Below the pieces are notes generated by a model. The model was not told the origin of the DNA. It did not search any database and saw only the letters and a program-made list of their open reading frames with translations. From the NCBI RefSeq assembly GCF_041435115.1, contig NZ_CP108046.1, forward strand, positions 744,001 to 808,000: a DNA stretch of 64,000 nt, written 5' to 3'. A program made the translations under genes and the position numbers. Numbering within the stretch: the first letter of the stretch is position 1; each line of letters starts with the position of its first letter. The stretch comes from Streptomyces sp. NBC_00289 (lineage in GTDB: Bacteria; Actinomycetota; Actinomycetes; Streptomycetales; Streptomycetaceae). Positions 12,965 through 29,577 of this stretch are shown piece by piece.

Positions 12965-13510
12965 TCACGTTCGGAGCCAGATCGCAACGGACGCCGCGGT
13001 GGCGGTGCCGAGGTAGACGTAGCCGCGCTTGTCGAAGCGCGTGGCGACGGCTCGGGACTGCTTGAGGCGGTTGATCGCCCGTTCGACGGTGTTGCGTTTC
13101 TTGTAGCGGTTCTCGTCGAAGCCGCAGGGCCGGCCGCCGCGTGATCCTTTGCGCAGGCGGGCGGCCTGGCCGTCGGTCTTCTCCGGGATGGTGTGCCGGA
13201 TGCCCCCGCTGCGCAGGTACTCGCGGACGGTACCGTTGCCGTATGCCTTGTCGGCCGCCAGGCTGTCGGGACTCCTGCGCGGTCTGCCCGGGCCGATCCG
13301 CGGAACGCGGATCTTCTCCAGCACGGCAATGAACTGGGTGCAGTCCGCCCGCTGACCTGGAGTGACGATCAGGGACAGCGGGCGGCAACTACCGTCCGCG
13401 CTCAGGTGGAGCTTACTGGTGAACCCGCCCCCACGAGCGGCCCAGGCCCTCACCTCCAGCACCACCTCCACCAGGCGGGCGACCAGGCTCTGCCACGGCA
13501 TTTCGCCCTG
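12965..13510 (-). pseudogene. IS5-family transposase, C-terminal two thirds
   Basis: The reading RGGGFTSKLHLSADGSCRPL, SLAADKAYGNGTVREYL, GIRHTIPEKTD, RYKKRNTVERAINRLK and YLGTATAASVAIWLRT is the C-terminal catalytic part of an IS5/IS427-type transposase, including the second Asp and the Glu. The N-terminal part and one terminal repeat are missing. It is fused in frame behind the first codons of aroB, so translation from the aroB start would make a hybrid. Confidence 0.85.
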
Positions 13511-13591
13511 GAGCTGACGTCCCACCAGGACCTCGTACGGCTCGCTGCCGGCCGTGCCGCCGACCTGGATCCGCGTCACTGCCTCGCTCAT
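13508..13591 (-). pseudogene. aroB: aroB (3-dehydroquinate synthase) stump, truncated by IS5 remnant
   Basis: The first 28 codons ([20 protein letters not shown], then LVGRQL) match the N-terminus of Streptomyces 3-dehydroquinate synthase; all NAD- and metal-binding regions are gone. The start overlaps the shikimate kinase stop by ATGA, which is the aroC-aroK-aroB order of actinomycete shikimate operons. The precise junction with the transposase fragment lies somewhere between codons 28 and 50. Dehydroquinate for the pathway must come from another aroB copy. Confidence 0.82.
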
Positions 13592-14103
13592 GCTTCCTTC
13601 AACTCCAGTGCGTCCAGGGCCGCTTGGGTGACCTCTTCGGGCGTACGGTCATCGGTGGGTACGACAGCCGTGGCGATCCCCTCGTACAGGTGCCGCCGCG
13701 CCTCCATCAGCTCCCGCCACTGCTTGCGCGGGTTGACGGCGAGCAGCGGCCGCGCGGCGTTCAGGCCGGTGCGCTTGACGGCCTCCTCGACGTCCATCGA
13801 GAGGTAGACGACGCGCTGTCCGGCGAGCAGCGCGCGCGTGTCCGCGTCCAGGATCGCGCCACCGCCCAGCGCGAGGACACCGTCGTGCCCGGCGAGCGCC
13901 CGCCGCACGGCGGCCTTCTCGATCGCCCGGAAGGCCAGCTCGCCCTCGTCGACGAAGATCTCCGCGATCGTGCGGCCCCGCTCGGCGACGATGTCGTCGT
14001 CGGTGTCCCGGTAGCCGACAGCGAGCCGATCGGCCAGCAGCTGCCCGACGGTGGACTTGCCCACGCCCATCGGACCGACCAGCACCACCTGGGGACCGGT
14101 CAT
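13588..14103 (-). CDS. aroK: shikimate kinase
   Basis: This 171-residue P-loop kinase phosphorylates shikimate at the 3-[20 protein letters not shown] (Walker A, residues 10-18) begins the domain; [11 protein letters not shown] and [16 protein letters not shown] carry the shikimate-binding Asp and Gly residues, and [19 protein letters not shown] is the lid region. Four-base overlaps on both sides (with aroC and aroB) indicate translational coupling. As a cluster member next to phzE-type genes it probably boosts chorismate supply, but it could also be the main housekeeping copy. Confidence 0.93.
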
Positions 14104-15284
14104 CGGATGGCCAGGTTCTCGAGGTAGGACCGCACGTTGCGGCGGGTCTCGGTCACGCTGTCGCCGCCGAACTTCTCCGCGACCGCGTCCGCCAGGACCA
14201 GGGCGACCATCGCCTCCGCGACGATGCCGGCCGCCGGAACCGCCGACACGTCGGAGCGCTGGTGGTGGGCGGCGGTCGCCTCACCGGTGGTCACGTCCAC
14301 GGTCCGCAGGGCCCGCGGCACGGTCGCGATCGGCTTCATCGCGGCCCGCACCCGCAGCAGCTCTCCCGTGCTCAGGCCACCCTCGGTCCCGCCCGAGCGG
14401 CCGGAGACGCGCCGGATGCCCTCGGGGGTGTTGACGATCTCGTCGTGCGCCTTGGAGCCGGGCACCCGCGCCAGGTCGAAGCCGTCGCCGACCTCCACAC
14501 CCTTGATCGCCTGGATGCCCATGAGGGCGCCGGCCAGCCGGGCGTCCAGCTTGCGGTCCCAGTGCACGTGCGAGCCCAGGCCCACCGGCACGCCGTACGC
14601 CAGGATCTCGACCACGCCGCCGAGGGTGTCGCCGTCCTTGTGGGCCTGGTCGATCTCCGCGACCATCGCCTTCGACGCGTCCGCGTCCAGGCAGCGCACC
14701 GGGTCCGCGTCCAGCTTCTCGACGTCGGCCGGGGTGGGGTACACGCCGTGCGGGGCCTTCGCGGAGGCCAGCTCGACGACGTGCGAGACGATCTCGATCC
14801 CGGCCGTCTCCTTCACGTACGACCGGGCCACGGCGCCCAGCGCTACGCGCGCGGCCGTCTCACGGGCGGAGGCGCGCTCCAGGATCGGCCGGGCCTCGTC
14901 GAAGCCGTACTTCTGCATGCCCGCCAGGTCGGCGTGGCCGGGGCGCGGGCGGGTCAGCGGGGCATTGCGGGCCAGACCGGCGAGGATCTCCGGGTCGACC
15001 GGATCGGCCGCCATGACCTGGTCCCACTTCGGCCACTCGGTGTTGCCCACCATGATCGCGACCGGGGAACCCAGAGACAGACCGTGCCGGACACCGCCGA
15101 GGAAAGCGACCTGGTCCTGCTCGAACTTCATCCGGGCACCGCGGCCATAGCCCAGCCGACGCCTCGCCAGGTGGTCCGCCACCATCTCCGTGGTGATCGG
15201 CACGCCGGCGGGAAGTCCCTCCAGCGTCGCGACGAGTGCGGGACCGTGGGACTCCCCCGCGGTCAGCCAGCGCAACCTGCTCAA
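14100..15284 (-). CDS. aroC: chorismate synthase
   Basis: This 394-residue FMN-dependent enzyme turns EPSP into chorismate. All family blocks are present: [69 protein letters not shown] and [20 protein letters not shown]. The TTG at 15284 is chosen because GGGAGA lies six bases upstream and the product then begins [15 protein letters not shown] as in other Streptomyces proteins. The TTG overlaps the stop of the upstream flavoprotein (TTGA), so the two are coupled. Confidence 0.95.
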
Positions 15285-16468
15285 CGGTGCTCTCCCGTCC
15301 CGCCGATGCGAGCCCCGTGCAGCCACTCGACCTCGTCGTACAGTTCGTCGACCGTGAAGGAGGACAGCATCGCGTTGCGGGCGGCAGCGGCGTCTCCGGC
15401 CGGGTGGTAGAGCCGCTCGCCCATGGCGCGGGCCACCTGCTGTACCCTCGCGGCGCGCTCGTACCGCTCGGCGTTGTACTTCTCCAGGCGCTGTGGGATG
15501 TCTCCGGCGGCTCCCGCGAGTAGTTCGCCGATGACGACGGCGTCCTCAAGAGCCATGCAGGCGCCCTGGGCTGCGTACTGGAGCATGGGGTGCGCGGCAT
15601 CCCCGAGGAGGGCGACGCGGCCGTCCGTCCAGCGCTCGACCGGGTCGCGGTCGCACAGGACCCATTTCTTCCACTCGGTCCCCAGTTCCAGCAGTTGCCG
15701 GGCGGTGTCGCTCAGTTCGGGGAACTCGGACAGGACGTGCGCCCGCTCGGCGGGCCTGCCGGCCACGACGTCCTGGGCGCCGTCGTCGCGGGTGACCGCC
15801 AGATTGAGGAACTTCCCGCTGCCGATGGGGTAGTGGACGAAGTGCCACTTGGGGCCGGCCCACAAGGTGACGGTGTTCCAGCGCAGTTCCCGCGGAACCC
15901 GCTCCATGGGGATGACGGACCGGTAGATCGTGTGGCCGGACACGCGCGGCACGCCGTCCCCGACCAGCCGACCGCGCACAGCGGAACGGATACCGTCGGC
16001 GCCGATGAGTACCGCGCCGGTGAAGCGTCGCCCGGTGTCGGTGATCGCCGTGACGCCGTCCGCGTCCTGTTCGTACCAGGTCACGGAGGAGTTGGTGTGC
16101 AGGGTGATGTTCCGCTGCGCGACGCAGCCGTCGAGGAGCGTCTGGTAGAGGTCGCCGCGGTGTACGACGGCGTATGGATTGCCGAAGCGGTCGCGGTACG
16201 CGCCGGTGAGCGGCATGCTCGCGACCCGCTGTCCGGTGGTGCCGTCCATGAACCTCAACTCGTCGATGTGCACCGCGTGTTGTCGTACCGCCGCGCCGAC
16301 GCCCAGGCAGTCCAGCGCGTGGAAGGCGTTCGGGCCCAGCTGGATGCCCGCGCCCAGTTCACCGAAGGTGTCCCTTCGTTCCAGCACGACGGCCCGGTGG
16401 CCGTGGCGCGCGATGCTCAGTGCCGCCGCGAGGCCGCCGATACCGCCCCCGGCTATGAGTACCTTCAT
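15281..16468 (-). CDS. FAD-dependent monooxygenase, 3-hydroxybenzoate 6-hydroxylase-like
   Basis: This 395-residue class A flavoprotein hydroxylase has [12 protein letters not shown] for FAD ADP binding, a central DG motif ([16 protein letters not shown]) and [20 protein letters not shown]. The latter closely resembles 3-hydroxybenzoate 6- and salicylate-type hydroxylases. It sits between aroA and aroC with four-base overlaps on both sides, embedded in a pathway predicted to make 3-hydroxyanthranilate, which is a 2-amino-3-hydroxybenzoate. The best inference is hydroxylation of that acid, perhaps para to the hydroxyl or with loss of CO2. The substrate is not proven. Confidence 0.87.
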
Positions 16469-17763
16469 CGTGATCCTTGTCGCTGTGGGGAAGCTGGTCG
16501 AAAGGTCGGAGGAAAGAGCCGTCGCAGTTCCTCGTGGAACTGCGGAAAGGTCTTGCCGACGCAGTCCGGGTCGTCGAGCGTGATGCCGGGGACGCGGAGT
16601 CCGAGGACGGAGAAGGCCATGCCGATGCGGTGGTCGCGGCGGCAGGCGATGCGGGCGCCGACGGGGGTGCCGGGGTGGACGGTGATCCGGTCGTGGCTCT
16701 CGTCGGTGTCCACGCCGAGAGCCCGCAGGTTGTGCGCGACGGCAGCCAGGCGGTCCGATTCCTTGAGCCGGGCGTGGGCGATGCCCCGGATGGTGACGGG
16801 CGCGTCGGCGAGGGGAGCGATGGCCGCCAGCGTCATGAAGGTGTCGGAGATCTCCCCCATGTCGACCGAGAAGCCGCCGCGCAGCCGGCCCGCGCCCGTG
16901 ACGCTGGTGGCCGTGTCCGTGATCTCGACGCGCGCCCCGAGCCGACGCAGCACGTCGACGAAGCGCAGGTCGCCCTGGAGGCTGCCGCTGCCCAGGCCGG
17001 GCACGGTGACGGTGGTGCCGGTGATCGCGGCGGCCGCGAAGACGTAGGAGGCGGTGGAGGCGTCCGGTTCGACGGCGAGGTCGACGGCGCCGTAGCCGCC
17101 GGGCCGGACTTCGATGACGTCGCCTGGCCATTCGGTGACTCGCGCGCCGAACCGGCGCATCAGGGCGAGGGTCATGGCTAGGTACGGCCGGCTGACCAGG
17201 CCTTCGACCGTGAAGGTCACCGGTGTGCGCATCAGGGGGGCCGCCATCAGCAGCCCGGACAGGAACTGGCTGCTCAGCGAGGAGTGCACGGTGAGCGCAC
17301 CGCCGTAGAGCCCCTCGGTGTCCAGCGTCATGGGTAGGCCGCCGCCCGGACTGGTCGTTACCGCGGCTCCCAGAGCGGCCAGCGCGCCGGCCAGCGGGCG
17401 CAGGGGTCGGGCTCTGAGCTGAGCGCTACCGTCGAAGACGAACCGGCCCCGGCCGGCGGCCGCGAAGGGCGGCAGGAATCGGGCCGCGGTTCCGGCGTCC
17501 TCGCACCAGACGTCGGCTCTCCCCGTGGGGCCGCGCCCCACGCCGGTCACCTCCCAGACCTCGTCGTGTTCCGGCGCCCCGACCCGGAAGCCGAGGTCCG
17601 TCAGCGCCGTACGGAAGGCGAGGGTGTCGGCGCTGACGAGGGGCCGACACAGCCGGGAGGTGCCGGTCGCGGCGGCGGCCAGCAGCAGGGCGCGGTTGGT
17701 GATGCTCTTGGAGCCGGGGATACGGGCCGTCGCCGCGGTGGGGTACGCGGTCGTGTCCGTCAT
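16465..17763 (-). CDS. aroA: EPSP synthase (3-phosphoshikimate 1-carboxyvinyltransferase)
   Basis: This 432-residue two-domain enzyme joins PEP to shikimate-3-phosphate. ARIPGSKSITNRALLLAAAA carries the Lys-Ser substrate loop, EDAGTAARFLPPFAAAG the PEP-contacting region, and ARLKESDRLAAVAHNLRALG the C-terminal domain signature. ATG 17763 has GGAGG seven bases upstream and is preferred to ATG 17781. It overlaps the flavoprotein by ATGA. Its place in the gene cluster suggests a pathway-dedicated copy. Confidence 0.92.
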   Translation of the reverse strand: MTDTTAYPTAATARIPGSKSITNRALLLAAAATGTSRLCRPLVSADTLAFRTALTDLGFRVGAPEHDEVWEVTGVGRGPTGRADVWCEDAGTAARFLPPFAAAGRGRFVFDGSAQLRARPLRPLAGALAALGAAVTTSPGGGLPMTLDTEGLYGGALTVHSSLSSQFLSGLLMAAPLMRTPVTFTVEGLVSRPYLAMTLALMRRFGARVTEWPGDVIEVRPGGYGAVDLAVEPDASTASYVFAAAAITGTTVTVPGLGSGSLQGDLRFVDVLRRLGARVEITDTATSVTGAGRLRGGFSVDMGEISDTFMTLAAIAPLADAPVTIRGIAHARLKESDRLAAVAHNLRALGVDTDESHDRITVHPGTPVGARIACRRDHRIGMAFSVLGLRVPGITLDDPDCVGKTFPQFHEELRRLFPPTFRPASPQRQGSR

Positions 17764-17800
17764 GGACTGTCCTCCAGGCATATGGCACTAGGGCGTGGGC

Positions 17801-18133
17801 TCAGCCGGTGAAGGCGAGGCCCAGACGGGCCAGTGCGACAGTGTCGTAGGCGCCCTCCGTGGTGGCCTCGACGTCGAAGACGTGCCGCTCGGTGGGCGGA
17901 CGGCCGATGAGCTCGGCGGCCCTGGCCGGAATGGGCGCGGCGGCGGCCTCGGCCGACTCCCACAGGAAGACGGCGCCCCAGCGGTTGGTGCGCTCGTCCG
18001 AGATCCACACCTTCAGGCGCAGCCCCGGCACCCGGGAGAACCGGTCCACGGCCTCGTCGCGCAGGAAGTCCCGGAGCGAGGCGATGGTCTGCCCGGATCC
18101 GTCGAGGTCCCACCAGGCGATCACGACACGCAT
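17801..18133 (-). CDS. YdhR-like small monooxygenase-fold protein
   Basis: This 110-residue protein resembles YdhR-type dimeric alpha-beta barrel proteins: VPGLRLKVWISDERTNRWGA and VFLWESAEAAAAPI correspond to the strand-helix core, and RHVFDVEATTEGAYDTVALA to the C-terminal swapped strands. Family members act on small aromatic or quinone-like compounds or have unknown substrates, and they use no cofactor. The start overlaps the end of the PhzE-like gene by 13 bases, so it is co-translated with the aromatic pathway and could act on a hydroxyanthranilate-derived quinone. Confidence 0.65.
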   Translation of the reverse strand: MRVVIAWWDLDGSGQTIASLRDFLRDEAVDRFSRVPGLRLKVWISDERTNRWGAVFLWESAEAAAAPIPARAAELIGRPPTERHVFDVEATTEGAYDTVALARLGLAFTG

Positions 18134-20013
18134 GTGCGCAGCACCCTTTCCAGCGCGTCACCAACGATGCGTACGCCGTTTTGCGTGAGCACGGACTCGG
18201 CGTGGAACTGCATCGAGGCGAAGCCCGGCCCGCGCAGCGCGTGGACCTCTCCGGTGTCGCCTTCCCGGCTCGCTTCGACGACCCCCACGCCGGGGACGTC
18301 GAACTCGTCGTGCGCGCTGCGGGCGGCGAACGTGTTGTAGAAGCCGACCCGTTCCCGCGCCGCGAACAAGTCGATCTCCCGCTGGACTCCCTGGTTGGGC
18401 ACGGGTCTGCGCACCAGTTCCAGGCCGAGGAGGGTGCTGAGTACCTGATGGCTCAGGCATACGGCGACGAAGGGCCGGCGCTGGTGCAGGAGCGCGTGGA
18501 TCGCGGACCGCAGGTGGGTGATCTTGGGGTGGCGGGTGTCGCGTGGATCCCCGGGGCCCGGTCCCATGACGACGAGTTCGTAGTCGTCGAAGGAATACGG
18601 CTCGTCGTAGCGGCGAACCGTCGGCTTCAGCCCCATGGTCCGCAGTTGCTGGCCGATCATGGAGGTGAAAGCGTCCTCCGCGTCCACCACGAGGACCCGA
18701 CGGCCGGCCAGTGAGGACCTCTCGACTGCCGGGGTGCCGCTCCCCGCGTGCTCGCCGGTCCAGAACCCGGCGATCGAGTCGTTGCGCCGCTCAAGGGCCC
18801 GGCGCACGCGCGGGTGTTCGGCGAGGCGTGTGGGGCCTTCGGCGCCCAGGGCGGCGAGGAGGCCGGCCGCCTTGGCCCGAGTCTCGTCGACCTCCGAGGC
18901 CGGATCGGAGTGCCGCACCAGGGTGGCGCCGACGCCGATACTCAGCCGACCCGCGCCGTCGATGTCGGCGGTGCGGATGAGAATCGAGGAGTCGAGCGTG
19001 CGCCGTCCCCGCTCGTCCTGCCCGATCAGGGCGGCCACGCCGCTGTAGTAGCCGCGGCCGCGGGGCTCGTAGCGGTTGATCACCCGGCAGGCGCTCTCCA
19101 GCGGACTGCCCGTCACCGTCGGTGCGAACATGGTCTCCCGCAGAATCGTGCGGGGGTCGTGGTCGCTCGCGCCCTCGATGAAGTACTCGGTGTGCGCGAG
19201 CCGCGCCATCTCCTTCAGATACGGCCCCACGACCCGGGGAGCGGGGTCGCAGACCCGCGCCATCATCTTGAGTTCCTCGTCGACGACCATGTACAGCTCG
19301 TCGGCCTCCTTGCGGTCGGCGAGGAAGTCCATCACCCCTGCCAGGGTGGGGCCCGAGGGCGGATAGCGGTAGGTGCCGCTGATCGGGTTCATCACGGCCC
19401 GACCGCCCCGGAGGCTCACATGCCGCTCGGGTGAGGCGCCGACGAAGGTGCGGTCGCCGGTGTGCACGACGAACGTCCAGTACGCCCCGCGCTCCCGCTC
19501 CAGCAGCCGCCGGAAGAACGCCAGGGCACTGTGCAGCGTGTAGCCGGTGATGTCGGCGACGAACGACCGCTTGATGACGAAGTTCGCTCCCTCGCCCGTG
19601 CCGATCTCGTCCGCGATCACCTTGCCGACGATGCCGGCGTACTCGTCGTCGTCCAGGTCGAAGGCTCCGCCGCAGATCACGACCGGCTCACCCGGCAGCC
19701 GCCGCAGGGCGTCGCCCAGCGCGACGGAGGTCTGCTCCTCCACGGTGATCGCGATCAGCGGTTCGCCGTCGTCGGCGCAGGCGTAGCCGCGCTCGGCGAC
19801 CTGGCGGTAGGGAAGCAGCGCCAGGACCTCGTGGCGCGCCCCGGCGTCGGGATCGGGCGTCTCGCTCAGTGGGATCCGGGCCACGGCGTCCACCGTCGAC
19901 GCCGTACCCGTCAGGACCTCCAGGGTGTCCGGGCCGCTCACCTCGGGGCGGTGCAGCAGCGCGAAGGCGGGCGGCCGCGGCCCGAGGATCCGGTCGAGCA
20001 GGTCGGGTGCCAT
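18121..20013 (-). CDS. PhzE-like 2-amino-2-deoxyisochorismate (ADIC) synthase
   Basis: This 630-residue fusion has an anthranilate-synthase-like chorismate-binding domain (about residues 100-420; NPISGTYRYPPSGPTLAGVM, DEELKMMARVCDPAP, FAPTVTGSPLESACRVI) and a C-terminal class I glutamine amidotransferase (about 440-620; VAVCLSHQVLSTLLG with the Cys, QFHAESVLTQNG with His-Glu). The CLSHQ form and overall length match PhzE rather than TrpE-TrpG. It converts chorismate plus Gln to ADIC. I chose ATG 20013 because AAGGAGGAG precedes it; ATG 20046, overlapping the phzD stop, is an alternative adding 11 residues. Confidence 0.93.
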   Translation of the reverse strand: MAPDLLDRILGPRPPAFALLHRPEVSGPDTLEVLTGTASTVDAVARIPLSETPDPDAGARHEVLALLPYRQVAERGYACADDGEPLIAITVEEQTSVALGDALRRLPGEPVVICGGAFDLDDDEYAGIVGKVIADEIGTGEGANFVIKRSFVADITGYTLHSALAFFRRLLERERGAYWTFVVHTGDRTFVGASPERHVSLRGGRAVMNPISGTYRYPPSGPTLAGVMDFLADRKEADELYMVVDEELKMMARVCDPAPRVVGPYLKEMARLAHTEYFIEGASDHDPRTILRETMFAPTVTGSPLESACRVINRYEPRGRGYYSGVAALIGQDERGRRTLDSSILIRTADIDGAGRLSIGVGATLVRHSDPASEVDETRAKAAGLLAALGAEGPTRLAEHPRVRRALERRNDSIAGFWTGEHAGSGTPAVERSSLAGRRVLVVDAEDAFTSMIGQQLRTMGLKPTVRRYDEPYSFDDYELVVMGPGPGDPRDTRHPKITHLRSAIHALLHQRRPFVAVCLSHQVLSTLLGLELVRRPVPNQGVQREIDLFAARERVGFYNTFAARSAHDEFDVPGVGVVEASREGDTGEVHALRGPGFASMQFHAESVLTQNGVRIVGDALERVLRTCVS

Positions 20014-20042
20014 ACGGGGTTCTCCTCCTTCGTCGACCGGGT

Positions 20043-20711
20043 TCATCGGCCGAGCTCCTCGATCACGGACGTCGTCGTGGTGACCAGGGCGCAGCGCTCG
20101 GCGGCGTAGTCGAGGGCCAGCCGGTGGTACGCCTCGGTGAAGTCGGCGACCGCGTCGGCCACCAGAAACGTCTCGATGTCGTTGGTGAAGGCCTCCACCG
20201 CGGTGGACAGCACCCCGATGTGCGCGTACACCCCGCAGAGGATCAGCTGGTCGCGGCCGTGGGCGCGCATCCGGTCCAGCAGGTCGGACCGGAAGAACGC
20301 GCTGTAGCGCCACTTGGTGAGCAGCCAGTCGTCCGGGCCGGGGGCGAGTGGTTCCACGACCTGCCGGTCGGCGGGGTCGACGCGCATGCCCGGTCCCCAG
20401 AAGTCCTTGAGCAGTCCGCGCTGTTCGTCGGTCATACCGCCCGGCTGCGCGGTGTACGCGACGGGCAGGCCACAGGCGACCGCCTGGTCGCGGACCCGGG
20501 TCGCGTTTCGCACGAGGTCGGCACCGGGCGCCTGGTCCGCGGGGAACTGCCGAAGAAAGTACCGCTGCATGTCGTGGACGAGCAGGACCGCGCGGTCCGG
20601 ATCGGCCTTCCATGCCGCTGTGTTGGCGGGCAGGTCACCGGGCGAGGGCATCGGGTAGGGCTGGATGGGGGGTATCCCTGGCACGGAATTCATAGAAGGT
20701 GTCCCTGGCAT
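20043..20711 (-). CDS. PhzD-like isochorismatase
   Basis: This 222-residue cysteine-hydrolase-fold enzyme removes pyruvate from ADIC to give trans-2,3-dihydro-3-hydroxyanthranilate. The sequence is very close to Phz[19 protein letters not shown] holds the catalytic Asp, [20 protein letters not shown] and [20 protein letters not shown] the Lys, and [17 protein letters not shown] the position that is Gly rather than Cys in this family. ATG 20711 has GAGGA upstream. Gene order phzC-SDR-phzD-phzE follows the pathway. Confidence 0.94.
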
Positions 20712-21543: not shown

Positions 21544-22713
21544 TCAGCGCCGCCATGCCGAGGCGACCTCGACGGCCTGCCGGGGATTGAGCCGCGGGTC
21601 GCAGAAGCTCGTGTACTTGTCTCCGACCGAATTCAAAAACGTGGGGTCGGCAACGCATTCCGTGACCTGGTCAGGCGTGGTTTCCAGGTGCAGGCCGCCA
21701 GCAATCCCACCGGCCGCCGTCACGGATTCCTGGAATTCCTCGACCTCGCGTATGACGGTTTTCACAAAACGCGTCTTGAGACCGTCGGGGCCGGACTCGG
21801 TGTTGCCGTGCATCGGGTCGGACAGCCAGATCGCCGGGTGCCCGGCGCCGCGTACGGCGGCGACCAGGGCGGCGAGCTTCCCGGGTGCCGTGCCGGCTCC
21901 CATCCGCGCGATGAGCGTCAGCCGCCCGGGGACCCGGTCGGGGTCAAGGCGCTTGCACAGGCGCACCAGTTCGTCCGGCATCATGCCCGGTCCCACCTTG
22001 CAGGCCACCGGGTTGCGTACGGCCGCCAGGAGCGCCACGTGGGCGCCGTCCACCTGCCGGGTGCGCTCGCCGATCCACGGCCAGTGCGTGGAGGTGAGCA
22101 GCAGGCCGCCGTCCTCCCCCCTGCGCAGCATGGGCAGTTCGTAGTCGAGGAGGAGGGCCTCGTGGCTGGTCCACACGGGGGCCTGCGCCGCACGCCGGGC
22201 GCCACCGGAACGGCCGAGGTGCTCCATGACCTCGCGTGCGGCCCGGTAACCGGTCAGCAGGCGCCGGGGGTCGGGCCGTCGCAGCACCGGGTCGGGGTTC
22301 GGATCGTTGACCATGTGCCCGCGGTAGACGGACAGTTCGACGCCCTGGACCGTTTCGGTAGGCCGGGAGCGCGGCTTGGCGTACTGGCCGGCGAGCCGGC
22401 CCACGCGCACCACGGGCCGGCCCGTGGCGACGCGCATGACCCCCGCCAGGAGGTCGAGCACCGCCGCCTTGCGGGCGACGTCCACGTGACCGCTCTCCGC
22501 CCAGTCCTCGGCACAGTCACCGGCCTGGATGACCTGGGCGTGGCCCTCAGCGACCGTCCTGAGGTGGTCGTGCAGCCGGGTCACGTCCGTGGCCTCGACG
22601 AGCGGCGGCAGAGCGCTCAGTTCTCGCCTCGCCCGCTCCGTCTCGGGGCGGCCCCGCCAATCGGGCTGCTGGAGAGCGGGGAGCGATTCGATGTAAGCGA
22701 GCTCGCTGTCCAA
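21544..22713 (-). CDS. class II DAHP synthase (PhzC/AroH type)
   Basis: This 389-residue enzyme condenses PEP and erythrose-4-phosphate, the first shikimate step. [32 protein letters not shown] (metal-binding Cys), [35 protein letters not shown] and [12 protein letters not shown] are class II blocks. The protein lacks the N-terminal extension used for feedback control in larger class II enzymes, as in PhzC, so it may be insensitive to aromatic amino acids. The TTG at 22713 is preferred because AGAGG precedes it; GTG 22773 would add 20 residues without a good ribosome site. Confidence 0.92.
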
Positions 22714-22866
22714 CTCGGTTCCTCTCGGAGATGAAGAAGGATTTCTTCGGCTGAACTCGTGAGTTGCTTTCACCGATTCTGCGGAATTACGGTACCCCTG
22801 GGAAGGGGAGAATCATTACTTCGTCAAGTTCCGGCGGGACGGAATTGGCGAATTTCTGGAAAACAC

Positions 22867-22902
22867 GGAGTCCCGGCCGCGTGGACACGCGGCCGGGACT
22901 CC
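22867..22902. terminator. strong hairpin between SDR gene and DAHP synthase
   Basis: GGAGTCCCGGCCGCGTGGAC followed by its complement forms a perfect stem of about 16 bp. It begins 21 bases past the SDR stop and precedes the PhzC-like gene on the same strand. It divides the cluster into two transcription units or acts as an attenuator. Confidence 0.75.
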
Positions 22903-22923
22903 ATTGATAAGGCGGGGGGTGGA

Positions 22924-23685
22924 TCAGGTGGTGACGCCGCCGTCGACGACGAGGTCGTGGCCGACGACGAAACTCGACTCCTCGGACGCCAGCCACAGCA
23001 CCGCGGCCACGATCTCGTCCGTCGTCGCGACGCGGGCGATCGGAACCGTCGTGGCCAGCCGAGCCGCGCGATCGGCGTCGGTCTCCCCGGGACGCAACGA
23101 CATGCCGGTGTCCGTGGCGCCCGGGCTGACCGCGTTGATGCGCACGTTGTCCTTGATGTGGTCCAGGGCGGCGACCCGGGTGAGGGTGCTCACCGCGGCC
23201 TTGGACGCGGCATAGGCGGCCATGCCGGGACGGCGCCCGTGGTAGCCGATGTTGGACGCGGTGTTGACGATGACGCCGCCACCGTTCGCCCGCATGTGCG
23301 CGATCTCCTGCTGCATGCCGATCAGGACACCGTTCAGGTTGACGTCCAGCACGGACCTCCACACGGACAGGTCCAGGTCGCCGACCGGGGCGGGCTTGCC
23401 GAAGATGCCCGCGTTGTTGTGGGCGACATGCAGGCCGCCGTGGCGCTCCACCGTGGTGCGTACCAGGCGCTCCATGTCCTCGGGCCGGGTGACGTCGGCG
23501 ACGACCGCACTGGCTGCGCCGCCGTCCTCGTCGACGAGACGCACGGTCTCCTCGATGGACTCCGGCCGGGCTCCGGCGGCCACCACGGTGGCGCCCTCGC
23601 GGGCGAAGGCCCTGGCGCTGGCCCGGCCGATGCCAGATCCGGCCCCGGTGACGATGACGACCTTGTCCTTGAAACGGGCAGTCAT
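22924..23685 (-). CDS. short-chain dehydrogenase/reductase
   Basis: This 253-residue classical SDR has TGAGSGIGRASARAFAREGA, NNAGIFG and the catalytic Ser/YAASK pair (NTASNIGYHGRRPGMAAYAASK), and ends GHDLVVDGGVTT. ATG 23685 has GAGGAG upstream. It is distinct from the EntA-like SDR at 20744 and lies in the upper operon with exporter, oxidase and cupin. It may reduce or oxidise a later intermediate; the substrate cannot be told from sequence. Confidence 0.85.
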   Translation of the reverse strand: MTARFKDKVVIVTGAGSGIGRASARAFAREGATVVAAGARPESIEETVRLVDEDGGAASAVVADVTRPEDMERLVRTTVERHGGLHVAHNNAGIFGKPAPVGDLDLSVWRSVLDVNLNGVLIGMQQEIAHMRANGGGVIVNTASNIGYHGRRPGMAAYAASKAAVSTLTRVAALDHIKDNVRINAVSPGATDTGMSLRPGETDADRAARLATTVPIARVATTDEIVAAVLWLASEESSFVVGHDLVVDGGVTT

Positions 23686-23758
23686 GGGGGGTGCTCCTCG
23701 GTACGTGTCGTGATGGATGGGATGTGGGGTTCCTGAGCGGCGGAGGGACCGGGGTCCG

Positions 23759-25225
23759 TCAGCCGCCGTCCCGGGGCGGGCGAGGGCGCAGCAGGACGAG
23801 CGCGCAGACCGCGGCGACGGCGAAGGCCGCCGCCGCGAGGGTGAAGGCGAAGCCGTAGCCGGAGGTCAGGGCGGACGCTGTACTCGTCCCCGTGCGCACC
23901 AGATCCGTGGTGCGTCCGGTGGCCAGGGTCACCAGGACGGCGAGACCGATGGCCGGCCCCGCCTCCAGCGCGGTGTTGACCACGGCGCCGGCGAGACCGG
24001 CCTGGTCCCGCGGGACGTCGGTGGTCGCGCTGACGGTGGATCCGGCGAAGACCAGCGCCACCCCTGCGGGAAAGAGCACAAGCCCGGCCAGGACGGCGCC
24101 CACATACGGCGTGTCCCTACCGATCAGGCCCAGCGCCGCAAGGCCCAGTCCGGCGAGCACCAGTCCCGCCACCAGCACCGAGCGCGGCCCGAAGCGCTGC
24201 ACCAGCCTGCCCACGCACAGGCCGCTGACGACCAGGGTCAGGCCGAAGGGCAGGAAGGCCGCCGAGGTCTCCAGCGCGGAATAGCCCCGGACCTCCTGAA
24301 AGTACAGCGCGAGCATGAAGAAGATCGTGGTGATCCCGGCGGACCCCAGGAAGACCGCCAGCAGCGCCATCGCCCTGCGCGGCGAGGCCGGGAAGGACAG
24401 CGGCAGCAGCGGCTGCGGCACCCGTGCCTCGGTGACGACGAACGCCAGCAGCAGCACACCGCCGCCGGCCAGGGTGCCGAGCGCCACCGGGGAGGTCCAG
24501 CCGCGCTCCGGCGCCTCCACCAGGCCGTAGCTGAGCAGCGCGATGGAGGTGGTGACCAGGGCGGCCCCGAGGACGTCCAGTCGGCCGGCCCGGGGCGGCG
24601 CGCCCTCGGGGATCAGACGCGGGGCGGCGACGAGGGTCACCGCCGTCACCGCGACGGGCACGACGAACGCCCAGCGCCAGGAGTTCGACGAGGCGACCAC
24701 CCCGGAGAGCAGCATCCCGGCGGTCCCGCCGGAGGCCGCGAGCCCGCCCCAGACGGCCATGGCACGGGCGTGCCGGGCCGGCTCGGGGTGGACGACGCTC
24801 ACCAGCGCCATCGCGGCGGGTACGGCCAGTGCGGCACCGGCACCCTGAGCGAAGCGCGCCACCAGCAGAGTCCACAGCCCCGGTGACACCCCCGCCAGCA
24901 CCGAGCTCACGCCGAACGCGCCGGTGCCGAGGAGGAACACCCGCCGGCTGCCGTACAGGTCGGACAGCCGGCCGCCCAGCAGCAGCAGTCCGCTGAAGGA
25001 CATCCCGTAGGAGGCCGAGAGCAGGGCGAGTTCGGCCCGGTCGAGTCCGAACTCGCGCTGGATGTCGGGAAGTACGACGTTGAGCACGCTCATGGCGAGG
25101 ATGAGCACGAACTGGACCGACGCCAGCAGGGCGAAGGCCGCGCCTCTTGTCTTGTCGGGTACGGCGGTGAGGGCGGGCGATGGCTCCGCCGCGGCGACGT
25201 CATGCTCCTGCACAGCTCGCCTCAC
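23759..25225 (-). CDS. MFS exporter, DHA2 (14-TMS) type
   Basis: This 488-residue protein has about 14 membrane segments and the motif LGGRLSDLYGSRRVFLLGT between TM2 and TM3, as in EmrB/QacA-type drug-proton antiporters. SWRWAFVVPVAVTAV is the usual TM5-TM6 region. The GTG start overlaps the oxidase stop by GTGA. In a biosynthetic operon it most likely exports the product and gives self-protection. Confidence 0.9.
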   Translation of the reverse strand: MRRAVQEHDVAAAEPSPALTAVPDKTRGAAFALLASVQFVLILAMSVLNVVLPDIQREFGLDRAELALLSASYGMSFSGLLLLGGRLSDLYGSRRVFLLGTGAFGVSSVLAGVSPGLWTLLVARFAQGAGAALAVPAAMALVSVVHPEPARHARAMAVWGGLAASGGTAGMLLSGVVASSNSWRWAFVVPVAVTAVTLVAAPRLIPEGAPPRAGRLDVLGAALVTTSIALLSYGLVEAPERGWTSPVALGTLAGGGVLLLAFVVTEARVPQPLLPLSFPASPRRAMALLAVFLGSAGITTIFFMLALYFQEVRGYSALETSAAFLPFGLTLVVSGLCVGRLVQRFGPRSVLVAGLVLAGLGLAALGLIGRDTPYVGAVLAGLVLFPAGVALVFAGSTVSATTDVPRDQAGLAGAVVNTALEAGPAIGLAVLVTLATGRTTDLVRTGTSTASALTSGYGFAFTLAAAAFAVAAVCALVLLRPRPPRDGG

Positions 25226-26883
25226 GTGTGGTCGGGAAGGGTGATGGACTGTGAGTGCCGGAAGGTGTTCCGGGGGTCGTACGCGGCCTTGATCTGCTGC
25301 AGGCGCGGATAGTTGGCCTTGTAGTAGAGCGTGTACCAGGGGACGCCGGTGGTGTTGACCTTGGTGTCGGTGATGTCGGCGTCCGGGTAGTTGATGTAGC
25401 AGCCGTCCGTGGCCGTGCCCGGCACGGGATAGCCGCCGGTGGCCGAGAAGACCTCACCGTACACGTCACGCACCCAGCCGATGTTCGCCGCGTCGTCGTC
25501 GGCACTCGACCAGAAGCTCTGGAAGAGACCCTTGAAGAGCGAGTCCCGTTGCGCCGCCGCGGTGTCACCCGAGCCCACGGTGTTGATCTTCCCGCCGTAT
25601 GACAGGAGGACGACCATGGAGGCGGGGTTCTCCTGATCGGTGCGCGTCAGGTGCCGGTACATCGCCTTGGCCTGTGCCGTGGTGACGTTCTTACGCAGGT
25701 AGGCGGACTTGTGGTGGCCGCGCAGCGTCGGATTGGTCAGGGTCGGGTTGCTGGCGCCCAGCAGCTTCACCGAGTGCAGCCACGGAAGCCGCTGCGGTGT
25801 GAACAGGTCGGGCAGTGCGCCCAGTTCGCCGACCGGCTCGGACATCGGGCGTACGGCCGTGTCAGAGAGCGAGGAGGTGACCTCGGTGAGGAAGTCGTCG
25901 AGCACCTTCTGCGCGTCAGGGACGGTGGCGTCGATCTGGGTGAGCAGGCCGATGCCTCCGTTCGCCCGGTGATTCATCATCAGGAAACTGCACAGTGAGG
26001 CCGCGGAGGAGTCGGCGGAGCCGTTCTTCTCGTGCCAGGCGCCGAACTTCTGCACGAGCGAGACGAAGGCGTCCTTGTCCAGCTCGCTCCAGGGCAGCGC
26101 GACCGCGCTGACGAGAACGTCCTTCGGGGGCCTGGGCAGCAGTGCGGAGGGGTCGGTGCCGGTGGCGCCGGGGCTGCGGAACCAGTACCGGGTGATGACA
26201 CCGAAGTTGCCGCCGCCACCGCCGGTGTGCGCCCACCACAGGTCGTGGTGAGGGTCGTCGGCCTCACGCGTGGCCACCACGCTGCGCGCAGTGCCGTTCG
26301 CGTCGACCACGACGACCTCGACCGCGTACAGGTGGTCGACGGTCAGGCCGTGCCGTCGGGACAGCATCCCGTAGCCGCCACCGCTGATGTGACCACCCGC
26401 CCCCACCGAGTAGCACATGCCACCGGGGATGGTGACGCCCCAGCCCTTGAAGAGACCGTCGTACAGCTGGAGGAGTGTCGCTCCCGCGCCCACTTCGAAG
26501 GCCTTGAGCTCCTCGTCGTAGCCGACGGTGTCGAGCAGGGAGGTGTCGATGACGACCCGGACCTCGGGGTGGTAGACGAAGTCCGTGTAGCAGTGGCCGC
26601 CGCTGCGCACCGAGATCCGCTTGCCCGCGTCCACGGCTTCCTGAACGGCCCGCACCACCTGCTCGGTGGTCCGCACCAGCCGGACGGAATCGGGCCGGGC
26701 GACCCAGCGGGAGTTGTTGCCGACGACGAGATCGGCATAGCGGGGATCGCCCGGAAGGACGGTGACGGCGTCGGGTCCGGGGGCGGTGGGGGCGGCGGTG
26801 GCGGTCGCCGCGGCGGGGCCGGCCTCCAGGGACGTGGCGGCTATCGCGGCGGCCGTGCCGGCCAGGACGCTTCGTCTTCTCAT
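25222..26883 (-). CDS. secreted FAD-linked oxidase, berberine-bridge type
   Basis: This 553-residue oxidase starts with a twin-arginine signal (MRRRSVLAGTAAAIAATSLE) and is therefore probably exported folded with FAD. The PCMH-type FAD domain carries His97 (RSGGHCYTDF) and Cys157 (GGMCYSVGAGGHISGGGYG), 60 residues apart, as in bicovalently flavinylated oxidases. The C-terminal BBE motif is YTLYYKANYPRLQQIKAAYD then PRNTFRHSQS. Such enzymes oxidise alcohols, sugars or phenolic and alkaloid substrates with O2. In this cluster an aromatic end-step outside the cell is the likely role. Confidence 0.9.
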   Translation of the reverse strand: MRRRSVLAGTAAAIAATSLEAGPAAATATAAPTAPGPDAVTVLPGDPRYADLVVGNNSRWVARPDSVRLVRTTEQVVRAVQEAVDAGKRISVRSGGHCYTDFVYHPEVRVVIDTSLLDTVGYDEELKAFEVGAGATLLQLYDGLFKGWGVTIPGGMCYSVGAGGHISGGGYGMLSRRHGLTVDHLYAVEVVVVDANGTARSVVATREADDPHHDLWWAHTGGGGGNFGVITRYWFRSPGATGTDPSALLPRPPKDVLVSAVALPWSELDKDAFVSLVQKFGAWHEKNGSADSSAASLCSFLMMNHRANGGIGLLTQIDATVPDAQKVLDDFLTEVTSSLSDTAVRPMSEPVGELGALPDLFTPQRLPWLHSVKLLGASNPTLTNPTLRGHHKSAYLRKNVTTAQAKAMYRHLTRTDQENPASMVVLLSYGGKINTVGSGDTAAAQRDSLFKGLFQSFWSSADDDAANIGWVRDVYGEVFSATGGYPVPGTATDGCYINYPDADITDTKVNTTGVPWYTLYYKANYPRLQQIKAAYDPRNTFRHSQSITLPDHT

Positions 26884-26934
26884 GGAACTCGCGTTCTCTT
26901 TCCTTAGTGATGCAAGTCTTTTGTGTACGAGGGG

Positions 26935-27423
26935 TCAGTCGCCCCAGATCATTCCAAGCCCGAGGTTCTCCGCGAATTCCACGGTGCGATCGACCGACCA
27001 CGCATCCCCGACCGGTGCTGAATTACCGGGCTGCACAGGATATCCGGCCTCGGAGAATAACCTCTCGAATCCACCGGGTGTGGTGATGACATAAAAACGG
27101 GCGGCTTCGCTCTCCACCAGGTAGGAATGCGGTATGCCGCGCGGCAGGAACAGCACGCCGGCACCGCTCACGGTTTCGGTGCGGTCCGCGACCGTGAGGC
27201 GGACCTCCCCGCCCTCGATGATGAAGATCTCGTCCTCAAGGGTGTGGGTGTGGCGCGGCGCGCGCTCCCCCCGCACCGCGCTGAAGTGCGTGATTCCCAA
27301 GGCACCACCGGTCTCCTCGGCGGAGAGTTTCGTGGTGACCACCGACCCCTTCCCCCAGAGCCGGGAAATCCCCTCACCGTCCCGGCGAACCACCGGTGAC
27401 TGTCCGTCGAGCCCTGCGGTCAA
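26935..27423 (-). CDS. cupin-domain protein (quercetinase-like)
   Basis: This 162-residue single cupin has motif 1 APRHTHTLEDEIFIIEGG with the metal-binding His-X-His and Glu, and motif 2 FLPRGIPHSYLVE with the last His. The C-terminal tail is longer than in minimal cupins. The TTG start at 27423 has GGAGGG just upstream. It is the first gene of the upper operon. A dioxygenase, isomerase or cyclase acting on an aromatic intermediate is possible; it is not the classical 3-hydroxyanthranilate dioxygenase by motif. Confidence 0.82.
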   Translation of the reverse strand: MTAGLDGQSPVVRRDGEGISRLWGKGSVVTTKLSAEETGGALGITHFSAVRGERAPRHTHTLEDEIFIIEGGEVRLTVADRTETVSGAGVLFLPRGIPHSYLVESEAARFYVITTPGGFERLFSEAGYPVQPGNSAPVGDAWSVDRTVEFAENLGLGMIWGD

Positions 27424-27515
27424 GGTCCCTCCAGAGAACGCTGCGTTTACCCGCTCACCATTTCCCCGGGATCCTCACACGCCGCCGTCGCCGTCTGCAA
27501 CGTACACAGAATTAG

Positions 27516-27599
27516 TTTGTCAAGTGTCCGCCCATGACCTTGCGGAACACATGACGAACCAATACGCAACCCGCGCCGCATACTTTGTCAGGTGTCCGC
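27516..27599. promoter_or_regulatory. paired direct repeats in the divergent promoter region
   Basis: TTTGTCAAGTGTCCGC (27516-27531) recurs as TTTGTCAGGTGTCCGC (27584-27599), one mismatch in 16 bases, start to start 68 bases. They lie between the divergent cupin and transaldolase-like genes, where an operator for the cluster is expected. The second lies in an AT-richer context. The rest of 27424-27715 shows no gene. Confidence 0.6.
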
Positions 27600-27715
27600 G
27601 ATGCGATCACGCAGTAACACGTCCGTTATGCCCGCACGTATGAAATCCTCACGCCAGGCCCTAGGATTACCGCTGCCCTTTACGTCTCGTTCGACTGCTG
27701 GAGGGGAGGCAGTCA

Positions 27716-28837
27716 TTGATCACATGGCCGCGCTCGAAGCACAGTGCCGTCCTGGACCAGCTCACTGCGGAGGGAGTCGGCCTCTGGCTGGACGACTACC
27801 ACCGTGGCCGGCTGGCCGACGGCAGCCTGGAGAGACTGGTGGCCGACGGACTGGTCGGCGGTGTCGTCTCCCGGCCCGCGGCCGTCGCGCGCGCCATGGC
27901 GGACACCACCGCCTACGGGAACCAGCTGAACCGACTCTCGGGCGCAGCCACCTCGGCCGAGGAGCGCGTCTACGCGATCCTCGCCGAGGACGCCCGTGCG
28001 GCCTGTACCGCGCTTGAACCGGTGTTCCGGGCGACCAAGGGCATGCACGGCTGGGTCTCCGTGGGCATCGCGCCCCGGCCGGCGGCGGACGCCGCGGCCA
28101 TGGCCGACCACTCCAGGCTTCTCGCGGAACAGGTCGATCGTCCCAACATACTGATTCGGATTCCCGTCGCGGGCGGCGGACTCGCGGCCGCCGGTGACGT
28201 GCTCGCCCACGGGGTCGGCGTGCACCTCACCTCCGTGTACTCCGTGCGCCGGTACGACCAGGCCGTGGACACCTACTTCCGCAGCCTGGAACACGCCACG
28301 TCCAACGGTCACGCCGCGTCCGCCGTCACCTCGCTCGTCTCCCTGGACATCGGCCGTCTCGACGCCGGAGTCGACGCCCTTCTCGGCGGCTCGGCGGACC
28401 CCAGCGCCGCCGCATTGCGCGGACAGACCGCGGTGGCCACCGCACGACTCGTCTACCGCCGTTACGAGGAGAGCCTCGGCGGTCCGCACTGGCGCTCCCT
28501 GGTGGCCGACGGCGCGCGCCCCCAACGCCTGCTCTGGACCTCGGAGAACGCCCCGGAATCCCCTCGGACCGCGCTGGACAGGGTCGAACGGCTCATCGCC
28601 TGGATGACCTCGCATGCCCTGCCCCAGACGGCCCTCGAGTCCCTGGACAGCCGCGAGGGGTTCCACGGCGACACGCTCTCCGGCTCCGCCGAACACGACG
28701 CGGCCCGCCGGGTGATGGAGGCGCTCGGCCGGTCCGGTGTCGTCTTCGACTCGGTCACCCGCGACCTGGAAACCGCGGCCATCGAGAGGGAACGCACCGC
28801 GTGGAACGAGCTCCTGACGGCGGTTCAGGCAGGCTGA
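27716..28837 (+). CDS. transaldolase-family protein lacking the catalytic lysine
   Basis: This 373-residue protein has the full transaldolase fold and length: GVGLWLDDYHRG, then GVVSRPAAVARA where active enzymes have TSNP, GMHGWVSVGIAPRPA in place of the Glu-containing SIEVDPRLA, and RPNILIRIPVAGGGLAA with Arg148 in place of the Schiff-base Lys. The Asn of the NVT segment is His (GVHLTSVYS). Asp26 or Asp27 remains. It therefore probably cannot do normal transaldolase chemistry. The TTG 27716 start has GGAGGGGAGG upstream. In this cluster a link to erythrose-4-phosphate supply would be expected, but a new or structural role is more likely. Confidence 0.82.
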   Translation: MITWPRSKHSAVLDQLTAEGVGLWLDDYHRGRLADGSLERLVADGLVGGVVSRPAAVARAMADTTAYGNQLNRLSGAATSAEERVYAILAEDARAACTALEPVFRATKGMHGWVSVGIAPRPAADAAAMADHSRLLAEQVDRPNILIRIPVAGGGLAAAGDVLAHGVGVHLTSVYSVRRYDQAVDTYFRSLEHATSNGHAASAVTSLVSLDIGRLDAGVDALLGGSADPSAAALRGQTAVATARLVYRRYEESLGGPHWRSLVADGARPQRLLWTSENAPESPRTALDRVERLIAWMTSHALPQTALESLDSREGFHGDTLSGSAEHDAARRVMEALGRSGVVFDSVTRDLETAAIERERTAWNELLTAVQAG

Positions 28838-29577
28838 GCCACCGTCCGGGCGGGCCGGGTGCGCGGTTCGCCGACGGAGTCGATCTCCAGCAGGAAGTGC
28901 TCGACCACGTCTCCTCGGTCGACGAGGGTGAGCTTCCTGAGGACCCGCAGCCGCCGCCCCGTCTCCGCGGTGATCCGGTGCAGCCCGTCCATGTCCCCTC
29001 TGCTGCTGAAGTGCAGCAGAGCCTGGCCGTCCGCCGTCAGCCAGCGCGGTGCCTCCTCCACATACCTGCGGTGCGTTTCGTATCCGGGATCCACATAGGC
29101 GCGTTCGAGGGGAGTGGCGAAGCGGTAGTTCTCCGGTGCGCGGACGTAGGGCGAACTCCAGACGATGGTGTCGTATCGCTGCCCGGCGGGCAGCGCTTCG
29201 AAGAGGTCGCTGTGCACGGCCCGCACTCGGTCGTCGACCCCGTGCCGCCGCGCGTTGAGCGCGGCGTTCGTCACCGCGTCGGCGTTGATGTCGGAGGCGA
29301 CGACCCGCTCGCAGCCCGCGAGGGCCGCAGTCACAGCGACGACCCCGGTCCCGCAGCCGATCTCCAGGAACACGCCACGTCGAGGGTGCCTCGCGGGATC
29401 CGAGAGGCCGAGCAGGTCCAGGACGATCTCGGTGGTGCCCGCGTGCAGAGGGGCGAAGACCGTGTCGAGCAGATCCCACTCCCTTCCACCCAGCGAGAAG
29501 GCCCCGGGCCGATGTTCCGCCCGCATGGAGTCGCGGCTGCGTTCGAGCGACCGTAGATAGCTCTTGATCTCGGACAT
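28825..29577 (-). CDS. class I SAM-dependent methyltransferase
   Basis: This 250-residue methyltransferase has motif I VFLEIGCGTGVVAVTAALAG, motif II ERVVASDINADAVTNAALNA, and YDTIVWSSPYVRAPENYRFA at the place where N-methylases of the HemK/PrmB group have NPPY; here it is SSPY. It could methylate an N or O of the cluster product. The 3' end overlaps that of the convergent transaldolase-like gene by 13 bases. Confidence 0.82.
   Translation of the reverse strand: MSEIKSYLRSLERSRDSMRAEHRPGAFSLGGREWDLLDTVFAPLHAGTTEIVLDLLGLSDPARHPRRGVFLEIGCGTGVVAVTAALAGCERVVASDINADAVTNAALNARRHGVDDRVRAVHSDLFEALPAGQRYDTIVWSSPYVRAPENYRFATPLERAYVDPGYETHRRYVEEAPRWLTADGQALLHFSSRGDMDGLHRITAETGRRLRVLRKLTLVDRGDVVEHFLLEIDSVGEPRTRPARTVAQPA

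Follow-up and report, generated by a model that had tools for sequence, protein, structure and literature searches.

A candidate gene cluster for a small aminohydroquinone or aminoquinone derived from chorismate in Streptomyces sp. NBC_00289, accompanied by a conserved DDE_5 protein that lacks the DD motif

The closest described relative of the locus considered here is the ring A portion of the paulomycin cluster, for which the passages on that ring list pau17 (3-hydroxybenzoate 6-hydroxylase), pau18 (PhzE), pau19 (PhzD), pau20 (EntA-like), pau21 (3-deoxy-D-arabino-heptulosonate 7-phosphate synthase, DAHPS) and pau27 (an FAD monooxygenase) (PMC4425429, PMC4802897). Two of its other features recall systems of different chemistry. 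In naphthyridinomycin biosynthesis the short-chain dehydrogenase/reductase (SDR) NapW inactivates the compound inside the cell and the secreted, Tat-type BBE oxidase NapU oxidises it outside (sections on these enzymes in PMC8648761 and PMC11375781), and nosiheptide NosA is described as using Lys49, Glu101 and a C-terminal loop for an imine hydrolysis that releases pyruvate (the mechanistic part of PMC4525488). Here we describe a cluster in Streptomyces sp. NBC_00289 that lies within a window of 64,000 nucleotides (the whole stretch analysed, bases 744001-808000 of contig C1; genome of 11.0 Mb in 6 contigs, 100% complete; G+C near 70%). Its gene content makes it rather probable that this is a self-contained cluster whose product is a small aminohydroquinone or aminoquinone, built from chorismate and oxidised outside the cell.

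The cluster occupies the minus strand between about 29.6 and 13.5 kb; the transaldolase and regulator genes are on the plus strand. From the cupin gene to the remnant of aroB no gap exceeds 150 nt, and at six junctions neighbouring genes overlap by 4 or 13 nt, so a single operon is likely. Gene identities, taken from Pfam, NCBIfam and PDB searches, are as follows.

12965..13502, minus strand: insertion sequence (IS) transposase sequence (DDE_Tnp_1), following the aroB start in frame; PF01609 6.4e-11; open reading frame (ORF) 12965-13591
13503..13591, minus strand: aroB remnant, first 30 codons only, running into the IS sequence; 97% amino acid identity to the beginning of the intact aroB in this genome
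13588..14103, minus strand: shikimate kinase aroK, duplicate of the host gene; PF01202 3.7e-42; 92% amino acid identical to the housekeeping copy
14100..15275, minus strand: chorismate synthase aroC, duplicate of the host gene; PF01264 7.7e-114; 96.9% amino acid and 95.5% DNA identity to the housekeeping copy
15281..16468, minus strand: 3-hydroxybenzoate-6-hydroxylase-like FAD monooxygenase (FMO); NCBIfam PRK08163 499.1 bits, cut-off 459
16465..17763, minus strand: cluster-specific 5-enolpyruvylshikimate-3-phosphate (EPSP) synthase aroA; PF00275 2.3e-96
17801..18133, minus strand: NosA-like (YdhR-fold) protein, gene overlapping the end of the PhzE gene; NosA 4za1 1.2e-25
18121..20046, minus strand: PhzE-like 2-amino-2-deoxyisochorismate (ADIC) synthase, chorismate-binding plus GATase; PF00425, PF00117; 3r74 3.3e-219
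20043..20711, minus strand: PhzD-like isochorismatase; 1nf9 PhzD 5.5e-96
20744..21514, minus strand: EntA-like dehydrogenase, predicted to convert 2,3-dihydro-3-hydroxyanthranilate (DHHA) to 3-hydroxyanthranilate (3-HAA); TIGR04316 349.6, cut-off 300; 2fwm 5.4e-54
21544..22773, minus strand: class II DAHPS; PF01474 9.8e-124
22924..23685, minus strand: second SDR, proposed intracellular reductase; PF13561 4.8e-57
23759..25225, minus strand: major facilitator superfamily (MFS) exporter; PF07690 7.8e-54
25222..26883, minus strand: TamL/AknOx-type bicovalent FAD oxidase (BBE), probably exported; 2y08 TamL 1.2e-159
26935..27423, minus strand: cupin; PF07883 5.8e-09
27716..28837, plus strand: transaldolase, predicted to supply erythrose-4-phosphate; PF00923 2.7e-29
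28825..29577, minus strand: methyltransferase, HemK/MTS type; PF05175 1.6e-10
29822..31834, plus strand: GAF-GGDEF_2-HTH_30 (PucR-type) regulator; PF13556, PF13185, PF17853
31838..33043, minus strand: DDE_5 (Tn5-fold) protein without the DD motif; PF13546 5.4e-40; convergent with the regulator gene, 3 nt between the stops

The core chemistry is of a known kind in a new setting, and 3-HAA as the hub is well supported by sequence, the predicted route from chorismate through ADIC and DHHA following the established chemistry of these families. The PhzE-, PhzD- and EntA-like enzymes would yield ADIC, DHHA and 3-HAA in turn, while the transaldolase, DAHPS, EPSP synthase, aroK and aroC products would boost the supply of chorismate. 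Both the PhzE- and PhzD-like proteins are full-length, with phenazine enzymes or their annotated homologues as best solved matches, and the EntA-like SDR exceeds two curated cut-offs for dihydrodihydroxybenzoate dehydrogenase. The DAHPS is clear by PF01474 but falls below the NCBIfam cut-off (TIGR01358, 390 against 614.7), and the cluster EPSP synthase is only 39% identical to the nearest other protein of its family in the genome. An earlier reading of the window, made from the letters alone (the sequence-only reading), had proposed 3-HAA as the hub of a pathway without core phenazine, nonribosomal peptide synthetase (NRPS) or polyketide synthase (PKS) genes, and these proposals agree with our searches: all of the genes that it named are present on the minus strand, and Pfam detects no phenazine or assembly-line families in 20 cluster ORFs and 8 flanking ORFs of the window. 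(Of the 20, three are unlikely to be real genes; the assignments of the PhzD and EntA genes come from the other searches.) A genome-wide search for PHZA_PHZB gave one sub-threshold match about 9 Mb from the cluster; PhzF and PhzG are absent among the scanned cluster ORFs, no genome-wide search having been aimed at these two. The earlier inventory was incomplete in that the MFS exporter, the transaldolase, the GAF-PucR regulator and the DDE_5 protein had been overlooked, and the most surprising element of the locus, a conserved dead transposase beside the PucR gene, lies outside the segment that it had covered (13508..29577).

The cluster belongs to a family. A scan of GTDB genomes with six exact peptide patterns gave 79 named FMO loci, which are a sample, many of them cut by contig ends; gene calls in the relatives come from a codon-usage script, and a gene was counted as present at 40% identity or more over 40% of the query. 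On this basis the EntA-like gene is found in 58 loci, PhzD in 46, PhzE in 44, DAHPS in 41, the NosA-like gene in 33, EPSP synthase in 30, the SDR in 29, the BBE oxidase in 17, aroC in 16 and the MFS exporter in 13; at least one of the four 3-HAA genes (EntA, PhzD, PhzE, DAHPS) accompanies the FMO gene in 59 of the 79, and all four do so in 38. Six relatives are near-complete (DSM 110735, OK074, the metagenome-assembled genome SH_71_13, S. pseudogriseolus NRRL B-3288, S. minutiscleroticus JCM 4790 and S. turgidiscabies Car8), and all six carry the PucR, methyltransferase, transaldolase, cupin, BBE, MFS and SDR genes at 61-94% identity, although the methyltransferase gene of one has an internal stop. 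These genes keep that order, together with the 3-HAA genes, in six related loci, which argues that the arrangement is not due to chance. By contrast, EPSP synthase is full length in three of the six close relatives, a 37-residue remnant in OK074 and absent from SH_71_13 and Car8, while Car8 alone has a complete aroC, four have part of the gene (at least three of them at contig ends) and SH_71_13 has none; the shikimate genes are therefore optional. Wider relatives have other supply genes, namely transketolase, transaldolase, dehydroquinate synthase and shikimate dehydrogenase, and one locus (L112) is a broken-up version of the cluster.

Two groups of loci have additional genes. Eleven related loci (L050, L051, L059, L065, L066, L074, L089, L090, L105, L109 and L111) carry an AMP-binding/LuxE-like and aldehyde-dehydrogenase/LuxC-like pair, which suggests reduction of an aryl carboxylate to the aldehyde, a reaction that occurs in the grixazone pathway. 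Others (L086, L087, L095, L100, L104, L106, L217, L227 and L228) have a lyase and a large FAD protein of approximately the sizes of the penzonemycin CreD- and CreE-like proteins, some with an AMP-binding enzyme as well, and diazo products are possible there.

For the steps beyond 3-HAA the order of reactions is our proposal. The FMO would hydroxylate 3-HAA para to its hydroxyl group to give 2-amino-3,6-dihydroxybenzoate, which is our best guess from its family placement: it passes the curated cut-off for 3-hydroxybenzoate 6-monooxygenase and scores far below that for salicylate 1-monooxygenase (146, cut-off 446). Its best solved match, 4bjy, was deposited as a 'probable salicylate monooxygenase' and is available in four versions, three of them with one residue changed each; we take this protein to be the Rhodococcus 3-hydroxybenzoate 6-hydroxylase. 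At the three altered positions, which belong to the active site, the window FMO has Tyr, His and Gln, which are kept in 80, 79 and 72 of 80 family members respectively (7 have His for Gln). Seven genomes (G101, G143, G161, G181, G227, G235 and G248) have two FMO copies each, 57-71% identical to the window FMO, and in G101, G227, G235 and G248 the two lie about 21-32 kb apart.

The NosA-like protein has a single strong PDB match, NosA itself. Its Lys41 and Glu89 align with Lys49 and Glu101 of NosA and are invariant in 34 of 34 members, and its gene is directly behind that of PhzE in all 30 loci where both pass the threshold, with three more (L059, L066 and L112) in which the NosA-like gene is present and PhzE is cut or broken. 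It would probably hydrolyse an imine- or enamine-type intermediate near the ADIC and DHHA steps, which would give NosA-like proteins a second setting for imine hydrolysis.

The last part of the proposed pathway is a sequence of reduction, export and oxidation, in which the second SDR would hold the product reduced inside the cell, the MFS protein would export it, and the bicovalent flavin oxidase would then oxidise it outside. The oxidase aligns to TamL (2y08) over residues 41-550, with FAD-carrying His97 and Cys157 both aligned; among 17 relatives the His is kept in 13 of 13 and the Cys in 14 of 14 that have a residue there (4 and 3 are gapped). Its start, MRRRSVLAG, is twin-arginine-like as judged by eye only, and the oxidase probably acts outside the cell. 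An earlier suggestion that the product is finished beyond the membrane fits both this start and the position of a TamL-like oxidase beside an MFS exporter. The order of BBE, MFS and SDR is identical in the window and in L034-L036, L038, L039 and L112, and is found on the opposite strand in L057, L060 and L071; it is thus present in two cluster types.

Several observations weigh against this scheme. The C-terminal loop of NosA (residues 112-151) is missing from the window protein, a chain of 110 residues that aligns with positions 13-122 of NosA. In 20 of the 79 FMO loci the fetched flank, which is short in some cases, contains none of the 3-HAA genes, and in Streptomyces sp. NBC_01481 (L037) an FMO 83% identical to that of the window has none of the remaining cluster genes around it over about 10 kb, so that the FMO may act on other substrates. 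Among solved oxidases the nearest (TamL, AknOx and CrmK) act on alcohols, and the oxidase substrate may therefore be an alcohol such as an epoxyquinol; moreover, MFS and BBE genes occur together in only 13 of the 79 loci.

Other products can be proposed from the same genes. The sequence-only reading had included a phenoxazinone-like dimer among its candidates; in this version a pigment would form outside the cell by oxidative dimerisation of 3-HAA or an aminophenol by the flavin oxidase, and a probably secreted oxidase and an aminophenol precursor speak for it. We found nothing that supports a dimer specifically, however, and consider it quite unlikely: phenoxazinones form by copper oxidases or spontaneous coupling, the oxidase is nearest to alcohol and sugar oxidases, and the ring hydroxylase, SDR and exporter would be left unexplained. 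We also think it quite unlikely that the FMO decarboxylates its substrate in the manner of salicylate 1-hydroxylase, giving 2-aminoresorcinol rather than an aminohydroquinone acid. The deposited name of 4bjy and the presence of decarboxylating enzymes among more distant solved relatives (8x38, 8gsm and 6bz5) speak for this reaction, and the curated model scores, the conservation in the FMO of the three residues altered in 4bjy and the probable identity of 4bjy speak against it. A route feeding NAD+ through dioxygenation of 3-HAA, with the cupin as the dioxygenase, is very improbable and we reject it. 3-HAA dioxygenases are cupins, but the window cupin matches Cupin_2 and AraC_binding and is not assigned to any 3-HAA dioxygenase family, and the FMO, exporter and oxidase have no part in such a route. 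It does have a precedent, in that a chorismate-to-NAD+ route is reported as engineered in the relevant part of PMC8097395. We thus favour a monomer of the aminohydroquinone or aminoquinone type over a phenoxazinone-like dimer, and this predicted product, with its predicted protective step of reduction, export and oxidation, is one source of the cluster's interest. Three compounds considered as leads were discarded: a literature search gave no link for LL-C10037alpha and, by title, nothing on the biosynthesis of enaminomycin, and among the matches listed none names both xanthomycin and S. pseudogriseolus.

The DDE_5 protein next to the regulator gene is a transposase by family (IS701-type) and fold. 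An AlphaFold model built with 21 sequences (mean pLDDT 83, pTM 0.84) matches the Tn5 transposase (E 3.7e-12, TM 0.59, rmsd 8 Å over 408 columns) and also the Tn5 inhibitor. Columns 218-219 read DD in eight of the genome's ten DDE_5 IS proteins, the other two being fragmentary; from this and from the transposase class we take the motif to be the catalytic pair. It is lost from the cluster proteins: among 31 cluster-associated members one is gapped at the site, D is never found at 219 and occurs at 218 in a single protein, with the second Asp kept in all 31 and the third acid (Glu or Asp) in 13. A search for the family gave 29 loci, two of them the same places as in the set of 31, in which there is no D at 218 or 219, the second Asp is present in 28 and the third acid in 26. 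The proteins of four close relatives are 76-80% identical to that of the window, those of two are 58-63% identical, and 24 further loci have versions at 38-54%. The gene is single-copy in the genome (next matches 32-42% identical), and no pair of terminal inverted repeats lies tightly at its ends, although one 17-nt pair (88%) encloses it with one arm inside the regulator gene.

It might be supposed that this is simply an insertion sequence that is decaying or passively inherited near the cluster, since true IS relatives are common in the genome, but several findings make this unlikely. First, dN/dS is 0.22-0.41 in all 15 pairs of the six close copies and there is no internal stop, which shows that the gene is not decaying. 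Second, the gene is single-copy, and the DD motif has been lost while 46 columns are invariant across 21 members. Third, in a survey of 297 genomes of the family, with six candidates scored per genome so that counts are lower bounds, 38 of 45 FMO genomes have a DDE gene no more than 30 kb from the FMO gene, against 0.47 expected at random (assuming 8 Mb genomes and uniform placement, with pairing from hand-copied coordinates). The FMO set comprises those kept at 54% identity or more out of 69 genomes listed at E 1e-60, two having partial matches, and the DDE set 88 genomes kept to about 4e-66 out of 113 listed at 1e-45. Seven FMO genomes have no nearby DDE gene (G074, G092, G096, G128, G189, G242 and G260; the FMO gene of G092 is at a contig end), and DDE occurs without FMO in 46 genomes. 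Of 109 DDE places in the survey, 38 were near an FMO gene.

The association with the regulator is more restricted. A PucR homologue is within 1.5 kb and convergent in 26 of the 29 family-search loci, which are the best-scoring and nearest to the window; 14 of the 29 are from genomes without the FMO, and PucR is present in 11 of these. In the named loci PucR is within 1.5 kb of DDE in only 6 of 23 (for seven of the 23, one flank is shorter than 1.5 kb), a figure that counts in favour of a passively carried insertion sequence, and elsewhere the DDE neighbour is shikimate dehydrogenase or DAHPS. The pairing therefore marks one branch of DDE proteins, convergent here and in the nearest relatives but not in all. 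Likewise, of 20 DDE loci outside the FMO set, about 10 kb each, arylamine or diazo-type genes are found in 7 and none in 13, which also leans towards passive carriage and shows that the DDE family reaches beyond arylamine clusters; the genes concerned are PhzE, PhzD and DAHPS (L225 and L226), a chorismate-binding/GATase fusion (L216, L227, L228 and L230) and putative diazo-forming genes (L217, L227 and L228). The protein nonetheless looks domesticated. We put at about even the broader proposal that actinobacteria have domesticated a dead Tn5-fold transposase, which serves as a functional and probably DNA-binding component of secondary-metabolite clusters, chiefly those for chorismate-derived arylamines, and that in the branch represented in the window it forms, with the convergent GAF-PucR regulator, a portable control module. 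A DNA-binding regulatory role is the simplest guess, and the GAF-PucR regulator with the DDE protein beside it would probably control the cluster; PADLOC gave no match that would point to an anti-phage role for either. If the role is regulatory, a dead transposase under purifying selection would be another bacterial reuse of a transposase, and a literature search (title level, without subscription journals) found no report of clusters of this kind with a transposase that is dead or domesticated.

The shikimate genes at the far end of the operon have a different history. The aroC-aroK-aroB' segment (13503-15292) is 94.0% identical in DNA to the housekeeping operon, with homology ending at 13503, and is by this comparison a recent copy of the host's own operon in which aroB has been cut by an IS; the intact housekeeping aroB is the only dehydroquinate synthase match in the genome. 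A further IS transposase (DDE_Tnp_1_6, 10825-12411) lies beyond the one that cuts the aroB copy. An aroC tree was built from 28 sequences of 14 genomes, of which 13 have both copies (fragments from G318 and a G316 copy with an internal stop were left out, and the G317 gene was counted as a cluster copy because EPSP synthase adjoins it); in this tree the window aroC is sister to the housekeeping aroC. Strongly supported pairing of the cluster copy with that of its own host is seen in 6 of the 13 (G000, G303, G305, G310, G311 and G316). On several occasions, therefore, the host chromosome has supplied a new aroC to the slot behind the FMO gene, either by refilling it or through gene conversion. 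Cluster copies of G307-G309 form a clade beside that of their hosts, those of G312, G313, G314 and G317 are not sisters of their own hosts' copies, and in such other lineages the cluster copy is, judging from the tree, older. The tree has 9 label changes (mean 9.6 on shuffling, with 225 of 500 shuffles as low). In L034, L038, L039, L041-L043, L068, L070 and L077 the contig breaks off soon after the FMO gene, in or near the expected aroC, as would be expected if a near-identical second aroC breaks assemblies. Refilling or conversion from the host aroC amounts to repeated gene exchange between primary and secondary metabolism.

Comparison with known systems places the cluster as follows. The caboxamycin, penzonemycin, limazepine and calcimycin pathways share with it genes for DAHPS, a PhzE- or anthranilate-synthase-like enzyme, an isochorismatase and an EntA-like enzyme (PMC9323291 is among the sources for limazepine and calcimycin); those pathways use 3-HAA in benzoxazoles, hydrazones, pyrrolobenzodiazepines or polyethers, whereas no coupling enzyme was found in the window cluster. 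The penzonemycin cluster also lists a 'transposase', pzm10, of 432 amino acids. The DDE protein resembles the DDE_5 and Tn5 transposases in family and fold and differs from them in lacking the DD motif, in being single-copy and in its fixed place in the cluster family. Nosiheptide NosA belongs to the same family by sequence as the NosA-like protein, with the catalytic Lys and Glu kept, but the window cluster has no thiopeptide genes and its protein lacks the loop that NosA requires. The likeness to naphthyridinomycin, as NapW and NapU are presented in the sections cited above, is one of proposed logic, an SDR keeping the compound harmless inside and a secreted flavin oxidase activating it outside; the scaffold differs, and the window SDR is likened to NapW by this logic. 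A literature search, partly at title level, for 3-HAA clusters with a 3-hydroxybenzoate-6-hydroxylase-like FMO or with EPSP or chorismate synthase gave paulomycin as the sole cluster with such an FMO. The view that the enzyme set matches no known one therefore needs qualification: the five-gene core (FMO, PhzE, PhzD, EntA-like and DAHPS), with a proposed route from chorismate to a hydroxylated 3-HAA, corresponds to pau17-pau21 as listed in the ring A passages, the comparison being one of gene annotation, and it is the remainder that differs. Among the scanned ORFs the window has no C-glycosyltransferase, sugar, paulic acid or second (TcmG-like) monooxygenase genes, and it adds EPSP synthase, aroC and aroK, the NosA-like protein, the cupin, the BBE oxidase, the MFS exporter, PucR and the dead DDE protein. 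An unnamed cluster family, with seven close members and dozens of wider relatives, is thus placed beside paulomycin ring A biosynthesis.

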